From a virus, in the IMG/VR virus record IMGVR_UViG_3300049830_000133, positions 1 to 35,053 of that record: a DNA stretch of 35,053 bases; one strand, written 5' to 3'. A program made the translations under genes and the position numbers. Below, one piece after another: positions 2,654 through 14,444 of this stretch; positions within the stretch are counted from its first letter, which is position 1, and the number at the start of each line of letters is the position of its first letter. The notes under the pieces are model-generated. The model searched no databases. It was not told the origin of the DNA and saw nothing but the letters and a program-made list of their open reading frames with translations.

Positions 2654-3321
2654 GTGACCCCCTGAATCAGTTTAAACAGCCGCCTGACGCGCTCGACATC
2701 GGCCTGACAGTGTTCGGCTACCATCAGCGGCTTCTGTTTCCAGTAGAACGCTACCTCTGACCCGTCGATGTCGGTGCCGGTATCGCCCAGCAGTTCACGG
2801 GACAGGTCTTTCAGCTTCACGTAGCCCTTGTAGCCTGCCCATATCCGCATGGTGTCGCGCACATCAGGCCGGCTTGTCCAGTCGAAGGCATGACGGATGC
2901 AGGCAGGTACTTTCACGCCCAGTCGCACACAGCGCTGGAACAGGAAGCGCAGGTCGAACTCGATGTTGTGACCGACCGGTATCAGAGGCATCGGATTGCC
3001 ATGCTCTGTGGCTGCAAAGTCCATTGCTTCAAATGCGAACCGCAGCAGGGCGGCTTCATCCTGTTCTGGCGTCTGCATGGCGACCATGACAGGGCCGTCA
3101 TCAATGGCCCAGGCCACGCAGGCGATGGACCCGTACAGGCCATCCAGGGCTGTCTTGGCCAGTTCTTCCTGAGTAGCTGACTCAGCATTGGCTGCCATCC
3201 ATTCGGCAATGGACTCAGGCTTTTTGTACTGACCGGGCGGCTTCACCCCGGCCCTGATTTTGTCGATCAGGGCCGGGTCGGTGCTGCTGAGAGTTTCGAT
3301 GTCGATATGGAGGTAGCGCAT
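2650..3321 (-). CDS. DEDD-family 3'-5' exonuclease (RNase H-like fold), 223 aa
   Basis: A 223-residue protein with the three exonuclease motifs of the DEDD group. Exo I is HIDIET (D7, E9), Exo II is GHNIEFDLRFL (D123), and Exo III is HCQADVERVRR (D208). The four acidic residues would bind two metal ions to trim DNA 3' ends. The spacing of the fifth residue (H204, four before D208) is that of the DEDDy class (YxxxD), but it is histidine instead of tyrosine. The gene sits next to an SSB-like gene, so a role in phage replication or recombination is likely. It is a stand-alone nuclease with no polymerase domain. Confidence in the fold is high; the substrate is not shown. Confidence 0.85.
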   Translation of the reverse strand: MRYLHIDIETLSSTDPALIDKIRAGVKPPGQYKKPESIAEWMAANAESATQEELAKTALDGLYGSIACVAWAIDDGPVMVAMQTPEQDEAALLRFAFEAMDFAATEHGNPMPLIPVGHNIEFDLRFLFQRCVRLGVKVPACIRHAFDWTSRPDVRDTMRIWAGYKGYVKLKDLSRELLGDTGTDIDGSEVAFYWKQKPLMVAEHCQADVERVRRLFKLIQGVT

Positions 3322-3323
3322 GA

Positions 3324-3704
3324 CTAAAACGGCACTTCTTGCTCGTCCATATCATCAGCGGGCGGGGGCGATGCCACAGGCTCGGCCTGCACCGGCTTAC
3401 CCTTGCTCAGCTCCAGCTTGATGCCGCCGACAATCTTGCCGCCGAATTCGACGGTGGGATCATTGGTCAGCCGCACCTTGCGGCCGATCCAGTGGTCGGT
3501 GTCATCGCCATACCCGGCCTCAAGCTGTTTGATCTTGGTCTTGTTGAGTGCGAGCCCTTTGGTCGATTCCAGGAAGTACAGAATGGGCTTCTCTTCGCCC
3601 TTGGCCACTTCCTCGATGGCAAGGTACTTGATCGTATAGACCGTGGGCTTCACGAAGTCGTCGCGTTTCAGGAATCGGGAGGGGAGCAAATCTGAGACTT
3701 TCAT
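3324..3704 (-). CDS. Probable ssDNA-binding / replication accessory protein, 126 aa
   Basis: ATG 3704 is preceded by AAGGA at good spacing. The 126-residue product looks like a small beta-barrel (VYTIKYLAIEEV, KPILYFLE, GRKVRLTNDPTVEFGGK), then a Pro/Ala linker and an acidic end DDMDEQEVPF. That tail closely resembles the acidic tip of bacterial SSB (DFDDDIPF), which docks partner proteins. The exonuclease follows two bases downstream, which fits a shared role in DNA replication. The call as an SSB-like protein rests on the tail and context, not on a clear OB-fold alignment. The homologous phage proteins I recall are mostly annotated as hypothetical. Confidence 0.6.
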   Translation of the reverse strand: MKVSDLLPSRFLKRDDFVKPTVYTIKYLAIEEVAKGEEKPILYFLESTKGLALNKTKIKQLEAGYGDDTDHWIGRKVRLTNDPTVEFGGKIVGGIKLELSKGKPVQAEPVASPPPADDMDEQEVPF

Positions 3705-3807
3705 ACAGGTTCCTTGTCGTGATGGATTGGTGCCAGTCGAGATACGCAGGGTCAGCGCGCAGGGTTTCCTGAAATTCCAGATACCGTCGCTGCTCTTCGT
3801 CGTTCAT
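3520..3807 (-). CDS. Possible first ORF of the leftward operon (overlaps SSB-like gene)
   Basis: ATG 3807 opens a 95-codon frame. Its first 30 or so residues look protein-like (MNDEEQRRYLEFQETLRADP, then AYLDWHQ). From about residue 36 the frame runs opposite to the SSB-like gene's better-supported frame, with low-quality composition. It has no Shine-Dalgarno but starts about 10 nt behind a candidate -10 box. It may be a short leader whose translation opens the downstream AAGGA site, a remnant of a decayed gene, or chance. Confidence 0.3.
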   Translation of the reverse strand: MNDEEQRRYLEFQETLRADPAYLDWHQSITTRNLYESLRFAPLPIPETRRLREAHGLYDQVPCHRGSGQGRREAHSVLPGIDQRARTQQDQDQTA

Positions 3808-3817
3808 GGCGGGAGGG

Positions 3818-3847
3818 AGTAGATCATGCGTAATGCACCCGTGTCAA
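3818..3847 (-). promoter_or_regulatory. Leftward early promoter (candidate PL)
   Basis: On the minus strand a perfect TTGACA (3847-3842) is followed by 18 bp and TCTACT (3823-3818), which is 4 of 6 to the -10 consensus. It points into the exonuclease/accessory operon. Its -35 box lies only 3 bp from the -35 box of the rightward promoter, so one bound protein could block both. Confidence 0.6.
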
Positions 3848-3877
3848 GCATTGCACTACGTATTAGGTTGTGCTATT
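3831..3877. promoter_or_regulatory. Candidate Cro operator half-sites between the divergent early promoters
   Basis: Three copies of a GTGCNATN half-site lie here: GTGCATTA (minus, 3838-3831), GTGCAATG (minus, 3856-3849) and GTGCTATT (plus, 3870-3877). They overlap the leftward spacer, the rightward -35 and the rightward -10 respectively. Multiple related sites across back-to-back promoters are what a Cro-type regulator normally uses. Binding is inferred; no full palindrome is perfect. Confidence 0.4.
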
Positions 3878-3879
3878 GA
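3851..3879 (+). promoter_or_regulatory. Rightward early promoter (candidate PR)
   Basis: TTGCAC (3851-3856), a 17-bp spacer and TATTGA (3874-3879) face the Cro-like gene. The ATG at 3888 is only 8 nt beyond the -10 box and has no Shine-Dalgarno, so the message probably starts at or next to the ATG. Confidence 0.5.
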
Positions 3880-3887
3880 TTGCGCCC

Positions 3888-4085
3888 ATGAAAACGAGCG
3901 AAGCCGCAGCCTACTTCGGCAGTGAATATAAGTTGGCAAAAGCGTTGAAAATACAGCAATCCAATGTGACTCGATGGAGGCTCAAAGTGCCTGAAATTTG
4001 GGCGCGCAGACTCCATGACATGACAGGAGGAAAATTGGCATTTTTGCCGGAAGATTATCCGCCCCACCTTAGAAAACGCACATGA
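3888..4085 (+). CDS. Cro-like helix-turn-helix regulator, 65 aa
   Basis: A 65-residue protein starting MKTSEAAAYFGSEYKLAKAL. It has the classic small Cro layout: SEAxxYFG, then a helix-turn-helix (KLAKALKIQQSNVTRWRLK), an IPE-like turn (VPEIWARRLHDMTGG) and a short C-terminal strand (LAFLPEDYPP). It would act as a dimer at the divergent early promoters next to it. I chose ATG 3888 over a GTG six codons upstream because the family starts at MKxSEA and because the upstream option overlaps the promoter. It lacks a Shine-Dalgarno and is probably leaderless. Its stop overlaps the HNH gene by 4 bp. No matching CI repressor is found beside it. Confidence 0.8.
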   Translation: MKTSEAAAYFGSEYKLAKALKIQQSNVTRWRLKVPEIWARRLHDMTGGKLAFLPEDYPPHLRKRT

Positions 4086-4726
4086 ACTATATTGATATGA
4101 CCGGGAAGGTTTTTGGCGACATAACTGTTATAAGAAAAGACAGAAGTGCCAACGGTGTTTATTGGCTTTGTGAATGCGCGTGCGGAAACAAGACAGTAGT
4201 TTCTGGAAGATCTTTGCGCTTTGGATCTACAAAAAGCTGTGGATGCGGATCTATTAGGCAGGCTCGGCTAAATTCAAATGCAGCAAGAATTAAGAAAATG
4301 GTTGGATCCCCGCACAGCAGGAAATTAAAAGACCTTCGTTCAAATATTTTGGATCGGTGCTTTAATCCAGCAAATAAGCGATGGAATAGGTATGGCGGCA
4401 GGGGAATTTCGGTATGCGATGAATGGGTAGCCAATGGGCGCGTGTTTTATAAATGGTGCTTGGAGAATGGTTACGAGCCAGGTTTGCAGATTGATAGAAT
4501 TAACGTTCATGGAAACTATGAGCCAAATAATTGTCGTTTCGTAACCGCAAAAGTCCAGCAGCGCAATACAACCAGAAATAGGTTGTTGACTTGGGATGGG
4601 CAGACAATGCCTGTTTCCCAATGGGCTGAAAAACTTGGTGTTAGAGGGCAAGCATTACAGCACAGAGTAGACAGAGGATGGGACATTAAAAGGATTTTCA
4701 CGCAGAAATTTCGCGGTAGGAATTAA
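4082..4726 (+). CDS. HNH homing-type endonuclease, 214 aa
   Basis: A 214-residue protein with an N-terminal cysteine-rich module (CECACG near residues 30-35, CGCG near 53-56, likely zinc), a central RWNRYGGRGISVCDEW segment, and an HNH-type core (GLQIDRINVHGNYEPNNCRF, about 138-157). A C-terminal DNA-reading module (SQWAEKLGVRGQALQHRVDR) resembles the helix-turn-helix repeats that follow HNH domains in free-standing homing enzymes. The gene is visibly richer in A+T than the genes around it, a sign of separate origin. It is wedged between the Cro-like and helicase genes with ATGA and TAATGA junctions, so it inserted without breaking the operon. Role: a selfish nuclease; host benefit unknown. 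Confidence 0.85.
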   Translation: MNYIDMTGKVFGDITVIRKDRSANGVYWLCECACGNKTVVSGRSLRFGSTKSCGCGSIRQARLNSNAARIKKMVGSPHSRKLKDLRSNILDRCFNPANKRWNRYGGRGISVCDEWVANGRVFYKWCLENGYEPGLQIDRINVHGNYEPNNCRFVTAKVQQRNTTRNRLLTWDGQTMPVSQWAEKLGVRGQALQHRVDRGWDIKRIFTQKFRGRN

Positions 4727-6867: not shown

Positions 6868-9036
6868 GTGGACATTGCAGAATTCGCCAGTACCCTCCTG
6901 GCACAGTCTGAATCACTCCTGCGCGAGTGGTTGCCGGCCGGGAAGCGGGTCGGCTCGGAGTGGCGGTGCGGATCCATTGCGGGCGATCGGGGCGAATCGT
7001 TCAGCGTCAACATGCAGACCGGCGTGTTCTGCGACTTCGCTAACCCGGATATCAAAGGCGGCGACCTCCTAGCCCTGTATGCAGCGCAGCACGGGTTGAA
7101 GCAGGGAGAGGCGGCCAAGCGGTTAGGCTGGACGAACGGCAGCACACGCCCTGTCGTGCCAGCCACTACGAAGCCCGTACAGCCGTCGTGCCAGCCAATC
7201 CCGGCCGATGCACCCCCACTGCCCGGACCCGACCCTGCGGCGGTCTATAGCTACCGGGATGCGGCTGGCATTGAACTGTTCAGGATTGCCCGCTACGAGC
7301 CAGAGGGTGAGCGCAAGTCGTTCAAGCCGTGGACCTGGAGAGGCAAGTGGGTAGCGAAAGCCTATCCCGCCCCACGGCCCCTGTATGGGCTGGAACTGCT
7401 CGGCAGTAAGCCGGTGCTGCTGGTCGAAGGGGAGAAGGCGTGCGACGCCGCCCGCACGCTGCTGGGCCGCGCCTATACGGTCATGACATGGGCGGGCGGG
7501 GCGGCAGCCATCGGCACCGTCGATTGGTCACCCCTCTATGGCCGCACGGTCGATATCTGGCCGGATGCGGATGAAGCGGGCAACAAAGCCGCCGCTGACA
7601 TTGCCGAGAAACTGATCGGGCGGCTAGGCACCGGCCGCTTGCGTGTGCTGGCACAGGACGGGCAGCCGACAGGCTGGGACATTGCCGATGCCGTCGTGGA
7701 TGGCTGGGACATGAAGCGTCTCATTGCCCATATCCGGCGCGAGGGGGACAAGTACATCCGCACGATTGCCGCCCCCCAGGTAGGCAGGCCGCATGACGGG
7801 CAGGCACCGGTTGCGGTGGTCGAGCCGGCAGGGTCAATACGGGCGCAGATAGAATCGCTGGGCCTTCAGTGCAATTCGGGCGGCATTCCATATCCGAACG
7901 AGGACAACGCCGTCCGTATCCTGAGCGGGCATCCCCAATTCGCCGGCAGCTTATGGACTGATTGCTTTGCGCAGAAACTGATGATTGGCGACCGTGCATT
8001 CACGGATGAGGACGCTGTGCGCGCCCTGATCTACATACAGGGGCAGCTTGGCATCCACAAAATCCCCCTGTCAGCCATCGAACGAGCCGCGCCCATTGTC
8101 GGGGCTGCGAATCGGCGCCACCCCGTGCGTGCATGGCTTGAGGGATTGAAGTGGGACGGCGTGCCGCGCCTTGCATCGGTCATGGCCGACGGGTTCGGCA
8201 CCGGACAGAACGAGTACACGGCAGCCGTCGGGCGATGCTGGTTCGGCAGTATGGTCGCCCGTGTCATGCAGCCCGGGTGCAAGGCCGACTATATGCCCGT
8301 GTTCGAAGGCCGGCAGGGGATTAGGAAATCTTCGGCCATGCGCGTGATTGGCGGCCAGTGGTTCATGGAGTCTAACGAGGATCCCATACACAACCGAAAG
8401 GACTTCCTGCAATCCTTGCAAGGCCGCTGGCTGGTCGAAATCCCCGAAATGCACGCCATTGCTGGCAGGGGATCGGGGATCGAGAAAATCAAGTCCATCA
8501 TTTCGACGCAAACCGACTGGTTCCGCGTCCCGTATGGCCGGGGCGTGCAGGAATACCCGCGCCAGTGCATCTTCGCCGGCACCACAAACCAGGACCAGTG
8601 GAACCCGGACCCGACAGGTGGCCGGCGGTTCTGGCCGATTGCATGCGGCGCTATCGAGCTAGGGTATCTGGGGGATCAGCGCGAACAGCTATTCGCTGAA
8701 GCGGTGGCTGTGTACAAACAGACAGGAGATTGGTGGACCGTGCCGGTGGAACTGGCGCTGGCCGAGCAAGACGCACGCCGGGAGCGTGATGCTTGGGAGG
8801 ATTTAATCCTGCCATGGCTATCGAGTAGGCCCCAATCAGATATAACCGTTGCACAGGTCCTCACAGACGTTATCGGCATAGAGCCGGGCCACTGGAAGCA
8901 ACCCGAGCAAAACCGCGTAGCGCGGGCCTTGAGGGCTAACGGGTGGTACCGGCATCGGCTGAATACGGGGGACCGGCCATGGGTCTATCGGAACTCGCGC
9001 AGGAACGAGCCTGTGCAACTGTCAGAGGAATTCTAG
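6868..9036 (+). CDS. Primase-helicase: TOPRIM primase fused to VirE/VapE-type P-loop helicase, 722 aa
   Basis: GTG start 6 bases after the nuclease gene. Residues 1-90 form a primase-type N-terminal domain (CGSIAGDRGESFSVN, FCDFANPDIKGGDLLALY), similar to CHC2-like entry domains but without a full zinc cluster. Residues about 180-290 form a TOPRIM domain: PVLLVEGEKACDAA with E187, and DIWPDADEAG with acidic residues near 229-236. After a linker, residues about 400-720 form the virulence-associated-E-type ATPase: Walker A GRQGIRKSS (481-489), WLVEIPEMHA (521-530), FRVPYGR, GTTNQDQW and TGGRRFWP. It should prime and unwind phage DNA. The Walker A has Arg where most relatives have Gly (GIRKS for GIGKS). 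It is the last gene of the rightward early operon. Confidence 0.9.
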   Translation: MDIAEFASTLLAQSESLLREWLPAGKRVGSEWRCGSIAGDRGESFSVNMQTGVFCDFANPDIKGGDLLALYAAQHGLKQGEAAKRLGWTNGSTRPVVPATTKPVQPSCQPIPADAPPLPGPDPAAVYSYRDAAGIELFRIARYEPEGERKSFKPWTWRGKWVAKAYPAPRPLYGLELLGSKPVLLVEGEKACDAARTLLGRAYTVMTWAGGAAAIGTVDWSPLYGRTVDIWPDADEAGNKAAADIAEKLIGRLGTGRLRVLAQDGQPTGWDIADAVVDGWDMKRLIAHIRREGDKYIRTIAAPQVGRPHDGQAPVAVVEPAGSIRAQIESLGLQCNSGGIPYPNEDNAVRILSGHPQFAGSLWTDCFAQKLMIGDRAFTDEDAVRALIYIQGQLGIHKIPLSAIERAAPIVGAANRRHPVRAWLEGLKWDGVPRLASVMADGFGTGQNEYTAAVGRCWFGSMVARVMQPGCKADYMPVFEGRQGIRKSSAMRVIGGQWFMESNEDPIHNRKDFLQSLQGRWLVEIPEMHAIAGRGSGIEKIKSIISTQTDWFRVPYGRGVQEYPRQCIFAGTTNQDQWNPDPTGGRRFWPIACGAIELGYLGDQREQLFAEAVAVYKQTGDWWTVPVELALAEQDARRERDAWEDLILPWLSSRPQSDITVAQVLTDVIGIEPGHWKQPEQNRVARALRANGWYRHRLNTGDRPWVYRNSRRNEPVQLSEEF

Positions 9037-9123: not shown

Positions 9124-9390
9124 CTACCTATAATTACCGTTGTGACCGTCGATGATCTGCACCTGTCCTGGCAGATCAGCCAATGCCGCACGGGCATCTA
9201 TCAGTGCGGGGTTAGTCTGGCCAGCCTGCCACGACTGCGGGTCAAGGTCGCGAAGCATGCACTCCACGCGCTCAAGCTGTTCAACGCACTGGCGTAGAGC
9301 TGCTATGCAGCGAATGACGCGCGGATCCTGCAATGGCGACTGTATCCGGCGCAGCTCAGCCAGGAATAGCTCGCGTGCTTCGGTAGTCAT
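9124..9390 (-). CDS. Hypothetical helical protein, 88 aa
   Basis: The last gene of the leftward accessory operon; its stop lies 34 bp before the terminator. The 88-residue product (MTTEARELFLAELRRIQSPL...) is mainly amphipathic helix with a Leu/Glu/Arg-rich middle (CIAALRQCVEQLERVECMLR), which could form a short coiled coil. It starts in an ATGA overlap with the Ala-rich gene. No catalytic motif or membrane segment is present, and no family is recognised. Confidence 0.7.
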   Translation of the reverse strand: MTTEARELFLAELRRIQSPLQDPRVIRCIAALRQCVEQLERVECMLRDLDPQSWQAGQTNPALIDARAALADLPGQVQIIDGHNGNYR

Positions 9391-9908
9391 GACACAACCT
9401 CCAGAAACCTAGCGCGCTGAGCGGCCCGAGCAGCGGCCAAAGCAGCGTCCCCAGCAGCGTCCCCTTCCCCAGCAGCGGCACAAGCAGCGGCCCGAGCAGC
9501 GTCCCCAGCAGCGTCCCAAGCAGCAGCGGCACAAGCAGCGTCCCCAGCAGCGTCCCAAGCAGCAGCGGCACAAGCAGCAGCGGCACAAGCAGCGGCCAAT
9601 TCACTTCCCGTCGCATCACCGTTAGCGAACCGTTCCGCCACATCGAGCGCGGCAATAGAGCAGGCATCCGTCATCAGGTGCTGGACCTGTCGGGCGCACC
9701 AGACAGCGAACAAGCGCCATTCCTTATCATGCCCAGGCTCGCAACGCATCGCCCACAACGCATCATCCAGCCCATTACTTTCAAGGATGACGGCATACGG
9801 CAACGGCTCATCATCAGGACCGGTTTTGTTGAGATGCGCCAACAGTTTCTGCCAGCCGTCTGTACAGGGGTTGTGAGCGCGTATCCGGTTCAGTGTCGTT
9901 GTGATCAT
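9387..9908 (-). CDS. Phage protein with Ala-rich tandem-repeat C-terminus, 173 aa
   Basis: I place the start at ATG 9908, which overlaps the upstream stop (ATGA); a longer frame to 10184 would run through two other genes. Residues 1-110 form a conserved part with DDEPLPYAVILESNGLDDAL and EWRLFAVWCARQVQHL. The C-terminal 60 residues are runs of Ala broken by WDAAGD and CAAA, including two adjacent near-identical 13-residue units. From memory, this N-terminal domain followed by variable AAWDAA-type repeats is a known family in phages and prophages of proteobacteria, with no assigned function. The repeat number probably changes by slippage because the DNA repeat is almost perfect. Likely a helical rod. 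Confidence 0.75.
   Translation of the reverse strand: MITTTLNRIRAHNPCTDGWQKLLAHLNKTGPDDEPLPYAVILESNGLDDALWAMRCEPGHDKEWRLFAVWCARQVQHLMTDACSIAALDVAERFANGDATGSELAAACAAAACAAAAWDAAGDAACAAAAWDAAGDAARAAACAAAGEGDAAGDAALAAARAAQRARFLEVVS
9502..9579. repeat. Tandem repeat, two 39-bp units (38/39 identical)
   Basis: Units at 9502-9540 and 9541-9579 differ only at the last base. They sit in a wider GCAGCG/CCAGCAG-rich tract (about 9420-9600) that codes on the minus strand for the Ala-rich tail of the 173-residue protein. Each unit adds 13 residues in frame, so length changes keep the gene open. Confidence 0.85.
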
Positions 9909-10033
9909 CGTATGGCCCTCCACACATAGTACAGACCAGCAGGGACCAGGAACACCAACAGGCCGGCGATGTACAGCGTGGCCGCAATCACGATGTAATC
10001 GGCACAGTCGAGCGGGGGTGGGGTGGGGTTCAT
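9905..10033 (-). CDS. Small membrane protein, 42 aa
   Basis: ATG at 10033 and TGA at 9905-9907 both sit in ATGA overlaps with the neighbouring genes, which makes this short frame convincing. The product starts MNPTPPPLDCADY and has one long hydrophobic helix (YIVIAATLYIAGLLVFLVPA, then GLYYVW), ending in a short basic tail RAIR. The positive-inside rule predicts the C-terminus in the cytoplasm. Function unknown; it resembles the small inner-membrane peptides often seen in phage accessory operons. Confidence 0.7.
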   Translation of the reverse strand: MNPTPPPLDCADYIVIAATLYIAGLLVFLVPAGLYYVWRAIR

Positions 10034-10239
10034 GACACGCGCTCCCGCGCATTGTCGCGCTCCCACTGTGCCCAATGGGCATCATTGCAAGATACATCAC
10101 GCCCGCCGGCATCCAGTGCATCCGCACGGTCAAAATCCGTGCAAAGCACATAGTGGGCAGGCATGACTCCCAGGAACCGCGCACCCTCGTACGCGGGCGT
10201 ATCAGGGAAGTAAATCAGGTATTCAGTGCGGGCGCTCAT
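10030..10239 (-). CDS. Hypothetical protein, 69 aa
   Basis: A 69-residue product starting MSARTEYLIYFPDTPAYEGA, with 4-bp ATGA overlaps at both ends. The residues before ALDAGGRDVSCND look like a small alpha/beta fold; the tail is polar and charged (WERDNARERVS). I see no motif that names a family. It belongs to the same nine-gene leftward operon as its neighbours. Confidence 0.65.
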   Translation of the reverse strand: MSARTEYLIYFPDTPAYEGARFLGVMPAHYVLCTDFDRADALDAGGRDVSCNDAHWAQWERDNARERVS

Positions 10240-11514: not shown

Positions 11515-11751
11515 TTATTTCCGCCGACACTGCTCCGCATACTCTTTTGCCATCGCTATGAGCCCGACACACTTCCACCTGTCAGGCACCACGTAGCCAC
11601 CGTAGTAGTTGTTGAACGTGGTCAACGACAGCCCGCAACCCTTCGCAAACTCTCCGCGCCCCATCCCTGGCACGGACACAATCGCCCTGAACTCGTCCAA
11701 AAACTGGTCCGGATAACACGCGTATAGCTCAGTCGAGTACGGCTTCTTCAT
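11515..11751 (-). CDS. Small helix-turn-helix regulator, 78 aa
   Basis: A 78-residue basic protein with GAGG 8 nt before ATG 11751. Residues about 30-55 (GRGEFAKGCGLSLTTFNNYY) fit a helix-turn-helix: a helix, a GCGLS turn, and a recognition helix TTFNNYYGG; a second helical part follows (CVGLIAMAKEYAEQC). It lacks the C-terminal peptidase or dimer domain of CI repressors. It faces away from the terminase genes, and its upstream region is the GGGACA/TGTCCC array, so it is the best local candidate to bind that array. The downstream operon has its own promoter. Whether it represses, activates or both cannot be read from sequence. Confidence 0.7.
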   Translation of the reverse strand: MKKPYSTELYACYPDQFLDEFRAIVSVPGMGRGEFAKGCGLSLTTFNNYYGGYVVPDRWKCVGLIAMAKEYAEQCRRK

Positions 11752-11772
11752 CGGTGATCCTCATAGTGGAAT

Positions 11773-12066
11773 ATTTGTCCGGTATACGAACAAATGTACA
11801 GTAGTTGGATATATCACCTAATTCGACCGTATTCAAGTAGATTTGGGACAGTAGAATCGGGACAAATATCCCACTCGTCTAGGCTGTCCCACTCTGTCCT
11901 CCACTTTGCATGGAGCGTTTTCAACGTACCCCTATAGTTCACGTTTTATGCACTATGGTGCTATCTGTAATTATCAATCTATACTGGGACATACTGGGAC
12001 AGTGGGACAGTTACCGGGAGGTATCAATCAGTTACAGGCATGTCCCAGTCTGTCCCAGTCTGTCCC
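11773..12066. promoter_or_regulatory. Array of GGGACA/TGTCCC sites upstream of TerS
   Basis: Nine perfect cores occur: GGGACA at 11845, 11859, 11986, 11996 and 12004; TGTCCC at 11885, 12041, 12051 and 12061. Degenerate copies are seen at 11776 (TTGTCC), 11868 and 11895. The last six form ACTGGGACA repeats facing TGTCCCAGT repeats across a 31-bp gap, mostly at 10-bp steps, that is, on one DNA face. ATTTGT/ACAAAT (11773-11795) adds an inverted pair near the HTH gene. This is the 350-bp gene-free stretch between the HTH gene and TerS. It may be an operator, a terminase loading site or an origin. Confidence 0.75.
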
Positions 12067-12106
12067 AGTACTGGTGACCGCTGTTTTCCCTGTATGCTGC
12101 CCGCCC

Positions 12107-12589
12107 ATGGACGATGACGACGAGCTACTGGCGGGCCTGCTGGACTTGCCGGCAGTCGGGGCCGACCCTGCCACCCTGGCAGCTCAGGGGGCGACCGTGG
12201 CTGAGATAGCCCGCCGAACGGGCCAGCCCATCGAGTCGGTGACAGCCGCCCTGGTAGCCGCTGGCATTGCGCCTGACAGTGCAGCGCACAAGCTGCGGGC
12301 ATTCGACGCCCTGTACCAGCGTGGGGTTGGCATGACCGTATCGAGCGAGGTCATGACCCGCGGAGGGCCGGTCAGTCTGGACAAGCAGCTGCCCCCTGAT
12401 CCCGCTGCGCTAGCCGCTTACCTGCAAGCCACGATGCCTGACCGGTTCAAGGCCGAACAAGCGCCGGCCTTAGTCCAGTACGTGGTGGCCCTTCCGCCAC
12501 CATCGGCCGATGGCCGCACGTGGCTGGCCGACATTGGTCGGGATGAGTCGGGCAGGGTAGTGGCCACTGTGCCACGTCAGACCGACTAG
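12107..12589 (+). CDS. Probable terminase small subunit, 160 aa
   Basis: A 160-residue acidic protein starting MDDDDELLAGLLDLPAVGAD. It contains a helix-turn-helix of the kind TerS proteins use (GATVAEIARRTGQPIESVTA, then ALVAAG) and a helical middle with DKQLPPDPAALAAYLQATMP-DRF, a YLxxxxPDxF-type segment I associate with small terminases. It lies before TerL with an intervening small gene. I choose ATG 12107; an in-frame ATG 67 codons upstream would translate the repeat array, which is unlikely. There is no Shine-Dalgarno; a TATGCT box ends 8 nt before the ATG, so the message may be leaderless. TerS would bind the phage packaging site, possibly the array just upstream. Confidence 0.65.
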   Translation: MDDDDELLAGLLDLPAVGADPATLAAQGATVAEIARRTGQPIESVTAALVAAGIAPDSAAHKLRAFDALYQRGVGMTVSSEVMTRGGPVSLDKQLPPDPAALAAYLQATMPDRFKAEQAPALVQYVVALPPPSADGRTWLADIGRDESGRVVATVPRQTD

Positions 12590-12826: not shown

Positions 12827-13015
12827 ATGTCTGGGAAAATCCAGAAAAAACAGCGGCTGGAGGTGCCCATTTTGCTGCACTGCTATAAGTACGGGCACAC
12901 GTGGGTCATTTTCGAGTGCAGCACGGGGTATGCGATCTGTCGGAAGCAGGGCCGTCATGACATTTCTGTTATGAGGGAGCATATATCAGGTGGGTTATAT
13001 GCCGATGCCCAGTAA
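12827..13015 (+). CDS. Small hypothetical protein before TerL, 62 aa
   Basis: A 62-residue basic product (MSGKIQKKQRLEVPILLHCY...). It has HCYKYGHTW and CSTGYAICRKQGRHD, whose cysteines and histidines might bind a metal. It lacks a Shine-Dalgarno but starts 6 nt behind an extended -10 box, so leaderless translation is possible. Its end overlaps the first codons of TerL by 17 bp, which could couple the two. No family is recognised, and chance coding cannot be excluded. Confidence 0.5.
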   Translation: MSGKIQKKQRLEVPILLHCYKYGHTWVIFECSTGYAICRKQGRHDISVMREHISGGLYADAQ

Positions 13016-14444
13016 CACCCAGACGGTCTGGTCTCCTAACGCGGGTCCCCAAACCGCGCTCATCATGTGCCCCGTGTTTGAAGTGTTCTTCGGTGGTGCT
13101 CGTGGTGGGGGTAAGACCGCAGGCATGTTAGGGGAATGGTTGAATCACTCCAGCCAGTACGGCGCAGACGCCAATGGCCTGATGGTCCGCCGCAGCTTGG
13201 CCGAGTTGCAGGACACGATCCGTGAGTCGAAGGCGATCTACACGCAACTGGGAGCGACGTACAACGAGACAGGCAAGCGCTGGACGATGCCGAACGGGGC
13301 GACGCTGACGTTTGCGTTCCTTGAGAATGATGAGGATGCGCAGCGCTACCAGGGTTGGGCAGCCACCAGACTATATGTGGAGGAGATTGGCAACTTCCCG
13401 CAGCCCGATCCGATCATGAAGCTGATGGCGATCCTGCGCTCCAGCAAGGGCGTACCTGTCGGCTTCCGTGCGACGGGCAATCCGGGTGGGCCCGGTCACC
13501 AGTGGGTGAAGGCCCGCTATATCGATCCAGCGCCTGCTGGTTACAAGCTGATCCGCGACGATTCGGGGTTGGAGCGGGTGTTCATACCCAGCCGCGTGTC
13601 TGACAATGACGCTCTATTGAAGGTCGATCCGACCTACGTCGATCGCCTCCGTGCCAGCGGCAGCAAGGAACTGGTCCGCGCATGGCTGGAAGGCGACTGG
13701 TCAGTGATTACAGGGGCGTACTTCCCCGAGTTCAGCCATAGCCAGCACTTGATCCTACAGACTGACCTGCCTGCCCACTGGACGCGCATCCGTGCGATGG
13801 ACTGGGGATCTGCTGCGCCGTTTGCAATCTTGTGGGGGGCAGTGTCTGACGGGACAGCCGTCAACAACACCGGCCTGTACTACCCGAAGGATTCCATCCT
13901 GGTGTACCGGGAGTGGTACGGGTGGAACGGGACGCCCAATAAGGGGTGTCGGATGGATGCGCGGGAGGTAGGGGCGCAGATCCGTGACATCGAGCTAGCC
14001 GCCGACGAGGACATGCACGACTCGGTACTCGACCCTGCCGCTTTCGCCTCTGACGGCGGTCCATCCATTGCAGAGCGACTCGATTGCAACTTCCGGCGTG
14101 CCGACAATAAGAGAGTCCAGCGGCTGGGGGTGTCAGGCGGGTGGGATGCAATCCGTGAACGGCTTCGCGGTACTGATAGCTCCGAAGGCCGGCCCCTCTT
14201 GTATTTCATGGACAGTTGTGTCCATATTGTGCGCACCCTGCCGGCATTGCAGCACGATTTGCATCGTCCGGAGGATGTAGACAGCACGGGTGAGGATCAC
14301 GCGCCAGACGCGCTCCGTTACCTATGCATGAGTCGGCCGCTGACTCAGACAGCTCGCAAGCACGAAAACCGGCGCTTCGAGACGCAGTTGACGTTCAATG
14401 AGATCGTCGCACGTCAGAGAAGGAAACGGTTGGCTGATGGTTAA
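12999..14444 (+). CDS. Terminase large subunit (ATPase-nuclease), 481 aa
   Basis: I take ATG 12999 because AGGTGG lies 5 nt upstream; a GTG three codons earlier is the alternative. The ATPase half has Walker A GGARGGGKT (residues 32-40) and Walker B RLYVEEIGNF. The nuclease half has the RNase H-like acidic residues in MDWGSAAPF (about D268), SVLDPAAF (about D345) and EDHAPDALRY (about D433). It drives DNA into the procapsid through the portal and cuts it. Length and motifs are typical of Terminase_6-type enzymes in podoviruses. The C-terminus overlaps the next gene by 8 bp. Confidence 0.95.
   Translation: MPMPSNTQTVWSPNAGPQTALIMCPVFEVFFGGARGGGKTAGMLGEWLNHSSQYGADANGLMVRRSLAELQDTIRESKAIYTQLGATYNETGKRWTMPNGATLTFAFLENDEDAQRYQGWAATRLYVEEIGNFPQPDPIMKLMAILRSSKGVPVGFRATGNPGGPGHQWVKARYIDPAPAGYKLIRDDSGLERVFIPSRVSDNDALLKVDPTYVDRLRASGSKELVRAWLEGDWSVITGAYFPEFSHSQHLILQTDLPAHWTRIRAMDWGSAAPFAILWGAVSDGTAVNNTGLYYPKDSILVYREWYGWNGTPNKGCRMDAREVGAQIRDIELAADEDMHDSVLDPAAFASDGGPSIAERLDCNFRRADNKRVQRLGVSGGWDAIRERLRGTDSSEGRPLLYFMDSCVHIVRTLPALQHDLHRPEDVDSTGEDHAPDALRYLCMSRPLTQTARKHENRRFETQLTFNEIVARQRRKRLADG

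Follow-up and report, generated by a model that had tools for sequence, protein, structure and literature searches.

To our knowledge, few phages other than the model systems have a known origin of replication. In phage P4, short iterons are read by the fused primase-helicase alpha. The P4 repeat resembles GGTGAC-type variants found among the relatives described below, but P4 differs from the phage studied here in its protein arrangement and in having a second cis region, crr. SaPI Rep, as summarized in PMC7581432 (citing Ubeda et al. 2007), uses its C-terminal domain to recognize a short-iteron origin directly 3′ of its gene, and apparently binds as two hexamers. For SCCmec Cch2, binding of the C-terminal domain to direct repeats downstream of the gene, a putative origin, was measured in vitro (PMC7581432). 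The plasmid pRN1 has an essential origin region directly 3′ of orf904, a primase-helicase-winged-helix gene, and the authors of that work propose a like placement of the origin for some phages, e.g. Bordetella phage BIP-1 (PMC4234260).

We analyzed an IMG/VR virus record of 35,053 bp (42% A+T; hereafter "the window", meaning the whole stretch) that contains an array of GGGACA/TGTCCC repeats. As far as SaPI Rep/PriRep1 is described in the summary cited above, the window resembles it in having a VapE-family helicase with several short iterons 3′ of the gene. It differs in the iteron itself (TGGGACA), in the fused Toprim-like primase part, and in the 2.8 kb between gene and array; moreover, the window belongs to a tailed phage rather than a satellite, and its origin is a predicted one. 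As for Cch2, the helicase is predicted to read repeats 3′ of its gene via a C-terminal domain, whereas Cch2 itself is a helicase of the D5/Primase_Cterm type, its repeat is AAGTG, present three times, and its primase-polymerase is a separate protein (PMC7581432). The right-hand cluster of repeats in the window can also form a long stem, as in pRN1; however, the pRN1 origin depends on a stem-loop, and no iterons were found there (PMC4234260), whereas the window carries iterons arrayed at multiple sites. Overall, the array fits the Rep/PriRep-type kind of helicase origin. A literature search for GGGACA in phages returned nothing relevant, and an iteron origin is undescribed for these phages in the literature searched, with most subscription journals outside its scope.

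A two-strand repeat array and a PriRep1 homologue

We observed nine exact GGGACA/TGTCCC sites within 222 bp, between genes 11515–11751 (−) and 12107–12589 (+). The exact cores (GGGACA at 11845, 11859, 11986, 11996 and 12004; TGTCCC at 11885, 12041, 12051 and 12061) are split five to four between the strands around an A+T-rich 85-bp spacer (Table 1). By contrast, the densest 222 bp in 500 dinucleotide shuffles held at most four sites (mean 2.05), indicating that the repeat array claimed in the sequence-only reading is real. GGGACA ranks top among the hexamers of the window for clustering on both strands, and no 300-bp stretch of the window outside the array has more than three sites.

Table 1. 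Coordinates of the proposed origin and initiator in the window. Degenerate sites differ from the core by one mismatch.
Feature	Position	Strand	Details
Proposed initiator, 722 aa, Toprim-like part and VapE-type helicase	6868–9036	+	Pfam PF05272, E = 1.2e-67
C-terminal winged helix, residues 658–709, proposed iteron reader	8839–8994	+	Predicted structure and motif co-variation
Second A+T-rich block	11761–11844		65% A+T; holds degenerate TGTCCG at 11776
Left iteron cluster	11845–11900		GGGACA at 11845 and 11859; TGTCCC at 11885; degenerate TATCCC at 11867 and TGTCCT at 11895
A+T-rich spacer between iteron clusters, proposed unwinding region	11901–11985		61% A+T, versus 42% for the window
Right iteron cluster	11983–12069		ACTGGGACA at 11983 and 11993; AGTGGGACA at 12001; TGTCCCAGT at 12041, 12051 and 12061

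If the one-mismatch site at 11895 is included, the orientations are (++)(−−) at 11845–11900 and (+++)(−−−) at 11986–12066. The right cluster had been described as three copies facing three, mostly at 10-bp steps, across a 31-bp centre. The centre is as claimed (12010–12040), and the three TGTCCCAGT copies are exact; on the facing side, however, only two copies are ACTGGGACA, the third being AGTGGGACA. Similarly, the 10-bp steps hold for both intervals among the right three sites and for the first interval among the left three, but the second interval on the left is 8 bp. Since a left cluster exists besides the right one, it is a larger gap, of 85–90 bp, that parts the two clusters. The steps between consecutive cores across this gap (TGTCCC, TGTCCT and three copies of GGGACA) are nearly equal in the window (10, 91, 10 and 8) and at L204 (9, 88, 9 and 8), one of the loci from our surveys.

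Only 0.5% of the 85-bp stretches of the window are equally A+T rich as the spacer, and the gap was more A+T rich than its flanks in 19 of the 24 arrays with a two-cluster layout, window included (Wilcoxon p = 0.001). At five loci (L092, L103, L110, L117 and L120), the inter-cluster gap is alternating purine-pyrimidine (GT/GC; GTGTGCGCGTG) rather than A+T rich; alternating purine-pyrimidine sequence can favor Z-form DNA. As a single strand, the right cluster (11982–12070) has a long predicted hairpin (z = −6.2). GC skew shows just a local low near 12 kb, which tracks gene direction. Elsewhere in the window, tandem repeats with 12-, 39- and 54-bp units occupy 9420–9597, inside a leftward ORF (9387–10184; phrog_18326, unknown function).

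The proposed initiator is a homologue of staphylococcal PriRep1. The AlphaFold model of the 722-aa protein (mean pLDDT 87.6) has as its best Foldseek match 7pds, the structure of PriRep1 with dsDNA (E = 3.6e-27), and a profile search with hmmsearch likewise matched 7pds_A (E = 8.2e-95), with PriRep1 outscoring every other solved structure by far; matches to Toprim were weak. The predicted elements of the C-terminal winged helix are H661–669, H678–690, E693–697 and E705–709. The sequence-only reading had put forward the 78-aa HTH protein and the 160-aa TerS candidate as binders of the array, neither of which has a significant family match, and had overlooked this likelier binder. The best GenBank match of the primase-helicase is in Burkholderia phage Mica. 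Exact peptide patterns from the 160-aa and 722-aa proteins turned up no relatives, a DNA-level comparison with GenBank phages gave just one 65% TerL match, and the collections searched held no close relative of the window phage.

Position of arrays relative to primase-helicase genes

We scanned viral contigs for runs of three closely spaced TGTCCC sites, and examined 118 loci among the matches listed. Each strand carried two or more sites in 79 of these 118 loci. By contrast, a control hexamer, CCCTGT, gave many array matches, nearly all of them single-strand, with sites on both strands in 3/118 among the matches listed; raw match counts are therefore misleading, and we required sites on both strands. 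Among the matches listed, 83 loci, window included, have at least seven sites, and 55 of the 83 encode a VapE-like or AAA_25/RepA-like primase-helicase, all from a single linked cluster. The array is 3′ of the primase-helicase in all 58 such genes among the matches listed (median distance 13 bp), although some of the motif-picked loci are near-duplicates, such that these counts overstate independence. In relatives, the array is often inside the primase gene or 1–100 bp past the gene end.

Because these first loci had been chosen by motif, the next loci were chosen by protein alone. For viral relatives of the window's VapE-type primase-helicase, we observed a dense short-repeat array (some hexamer present eight or more times in 350 bp, within 4 kb) on the 3′ side in 31/80 and on the 5′ side in 3/80. 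For RepA/AAA_25-type primases (at least seven copies, two or more on each strand), an array was present 3′ in 51 of 70 and 5′ in none of 70, and for VapE genes in bacterial genomes, 3′ in 40 of 76 and 5′ in 2 of 76. Thresholds are unlike across the three surveys, the 3′ segments include the final 300 bp of the gene itself, and 5′ DNA is short or missing at some loci, making the 5′ controls somewhat smaller than stated. Many VapE relatives have no array by the criterion used. The repeated word varies among VapE loci (TGGGAC, TATGGAA, TTAGGAA, GTTGGAC, GGTGAC) and among AAA_25 loci (CGGGACA, CGTAACA, CGCAACA, CGGACA and others). GGGACA-like iterons are common to AAA_25 loci (L418–L496) and VapE loci (L338–L417).

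The 3′ position of the array thus holds family-wide, and the window array is also on the 3′ side of its primase-helicase gene, at an unusually large distance of 2.8 kb. Most array-bearing relatives have the array adjacent to the gene; however, the offset is 1.1–1.8 kb in several relatives and 2.83 kb in Mica. Of the readings that had been offered for the array, this comparison lends good support to an iteron-type replication origin. Unannotated iteron-like arrays 3′ of primase genes, which are probable origins, occur in the isolated phages Mica (L328, 11147–11353; motif GGTGAC), PS3 (L331, 6762–6993), CRP-831 (L335, from 6169) and Haddon (Pseudomonas; L330, 8580–8849). We also found an AGTGCT/AGCACT array directly 3′ of the VapE gene in the Gluconobacter plasmid pGO128 (L577, 2688–2938), where it is probably the plasmid origin. 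This 4.3-kb plasmid has five annotated genes, none of them a terminase, and in pKNA06 an array is likewise directly 3′ of VapE with terminase absent from the listed genes, the gene table being incomplete for both plasmids.

These surveys bear on a second reading, in which the array is a terminase (pac/cos) site: the small subunit would bind the repeats just 5′ of its own gene, and cutting would begin there. Consistent with this, the array ends ~40 bp before the putative small-subunit gene (12107–12589), which is followed by TerL (12990–14444), and the arrays at L107, L123, L139 and L173 also overlap or precede a terminase gene. However, a GGGACA array was present in only 1 of 80 TerL relatives (51–64% identity), many of whose loci are short, making the absence of an array uninformative in some; at the one exception, L056, the array overlaps a gene for a RepA-like helicase at its 3′ end. 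Moreover, the arrays of PS3 (Marinobacter), CRP-831 (Roseobacter) and Mica are 3′ of primase genes with no terminase annotated nearby, equivalent arrays occur in pGO128 and pKNA06, which have no annotated terminase, and the 160-aa small-subunit candidate was assigned by position only. We therefore consider it very improbable that the array is a packaging site.

A role in transcription control, with the repeats as operators for a phage regulator (e.g. the 78-aa HTH protein) that switches the late operon from 12107, also accounts for some of the local layout. The array is between divergent genes, 11515–11751 (−) and 12107 onwards (+), at the border between replication and packaging genes, and an origin could double as a regulatory region. 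Nonetheless, a search for promoters of the sigma-70-like type found none in 11700–12200, the proposed regulator has no family match, and relatives keep the array 3′ of the primase, as does a 4.3-kb plasmid, such that we give this explanation very little weight. A P22-Cro-like regulator is encoded at 3870–4085 (+; Pfam P22_Cro, E = 9e-11), adjoining leftward genes, and this region is likely to be the early or lysogeny switch. We find no support for the suggestion that the array serves as a phage-switch operator: this gene is ~8 kb away, and GGGACA is absent from 2805–4679, which led us to reject a lysogeny-switch operator.

Co-variation of repeat motif and winged helix

The repeat motif and the C-terminal winged helix co-vary. 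Among 46 non-redundant VapE proteins, similarity of the iterons was correlated with similarity of the C-terminal domain when the helicase domain was controlled for (partial r = 0.18, p = 0.005). By contrast, we observed no significant correlation with the helicase domain when the C-terminal domain was controlled for (0.06, p = 0.18). These sequence comparisons suggest that the repeat tracks the winged helix modestly better than the helicase domain. Nearest-neighbor prediction of motif class was hardly better with the C-terminal domain (23/38) than with the helicase (21/38). The C-terminal domains closest to that of the window are mostly from GGGAC-type loci, whereas the closest helicase domains are from TATGGAA-type loci.

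The array could be a true origin whose iterons are read by some other protein, from the host or a small one encoded separately by the phage, with the primase-helicase recruited secondarily. In favor of such a reader, GGGACA is common to VapE and AAA_25 loci, and we detected no homology between the C-terminal domains of the two groups (hhalign probability 1.8%). However, a common host factor would predict a single motif, whereas motifs vary widely among relatives. Moreover, the helicases of L204 and L404 are 98% identical, yet their recognition helices differ, as do their motifs (GTGGGAC and GTTGGAC, respectively), and the work on SaPI Rep and Cch2, to the extent that PMC7581432 recounts it, implicates the C-terminal domain of the helicase itself. 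Hence, we regard a separate reader as very unlikely. We conclude that the array is very probably the phage replication origin, with its iterons bound by the phage's own VapE-type primase-helicase via the C-terminal winged helix.

A model for initiation and its implications

By analogy with SaPI Rep, we propose that copies of the primase-helicase would bind the GGGACA/TGTCCC iterons through the C-terminal winged helix, so that two helicase assemblies of opposite orientation would flank the spacer. These assemblies would melt the A+T-rich spacer and then load, the fused primase part of the initiator would make primers, and polymerases would then proceed in both directions. We infer the binding by the window primase-helicase, the strand opening and the bidirectional start.

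The position rule that emerges, of both-strand repeats with a variable motif 3′ of a primase-helicase gene, offers a means to predict origins in phages, prophages and phage-plasmids. The natural variants of the motif provide a way to work out how winged helices read iterons, and near-identical pairs such as L204/L404 make this reading directly testable. We tentatively suggest that many VapE/RepA-type tailed phages carry a self-contained replicon in which iteron and winged helix co-evolve, and that VapE and AAA_25 initiators share a GGGACA-like motif range, although we hold this broader proposal to be less likely than not. That C-terminal domains with no detectable relationship share this range may perhaps mean that the iterons are also primase start sites. 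If iteron and winged helix do evolve together, both the origin and the specificity with which it is read would be predictable from sequence for these phages.
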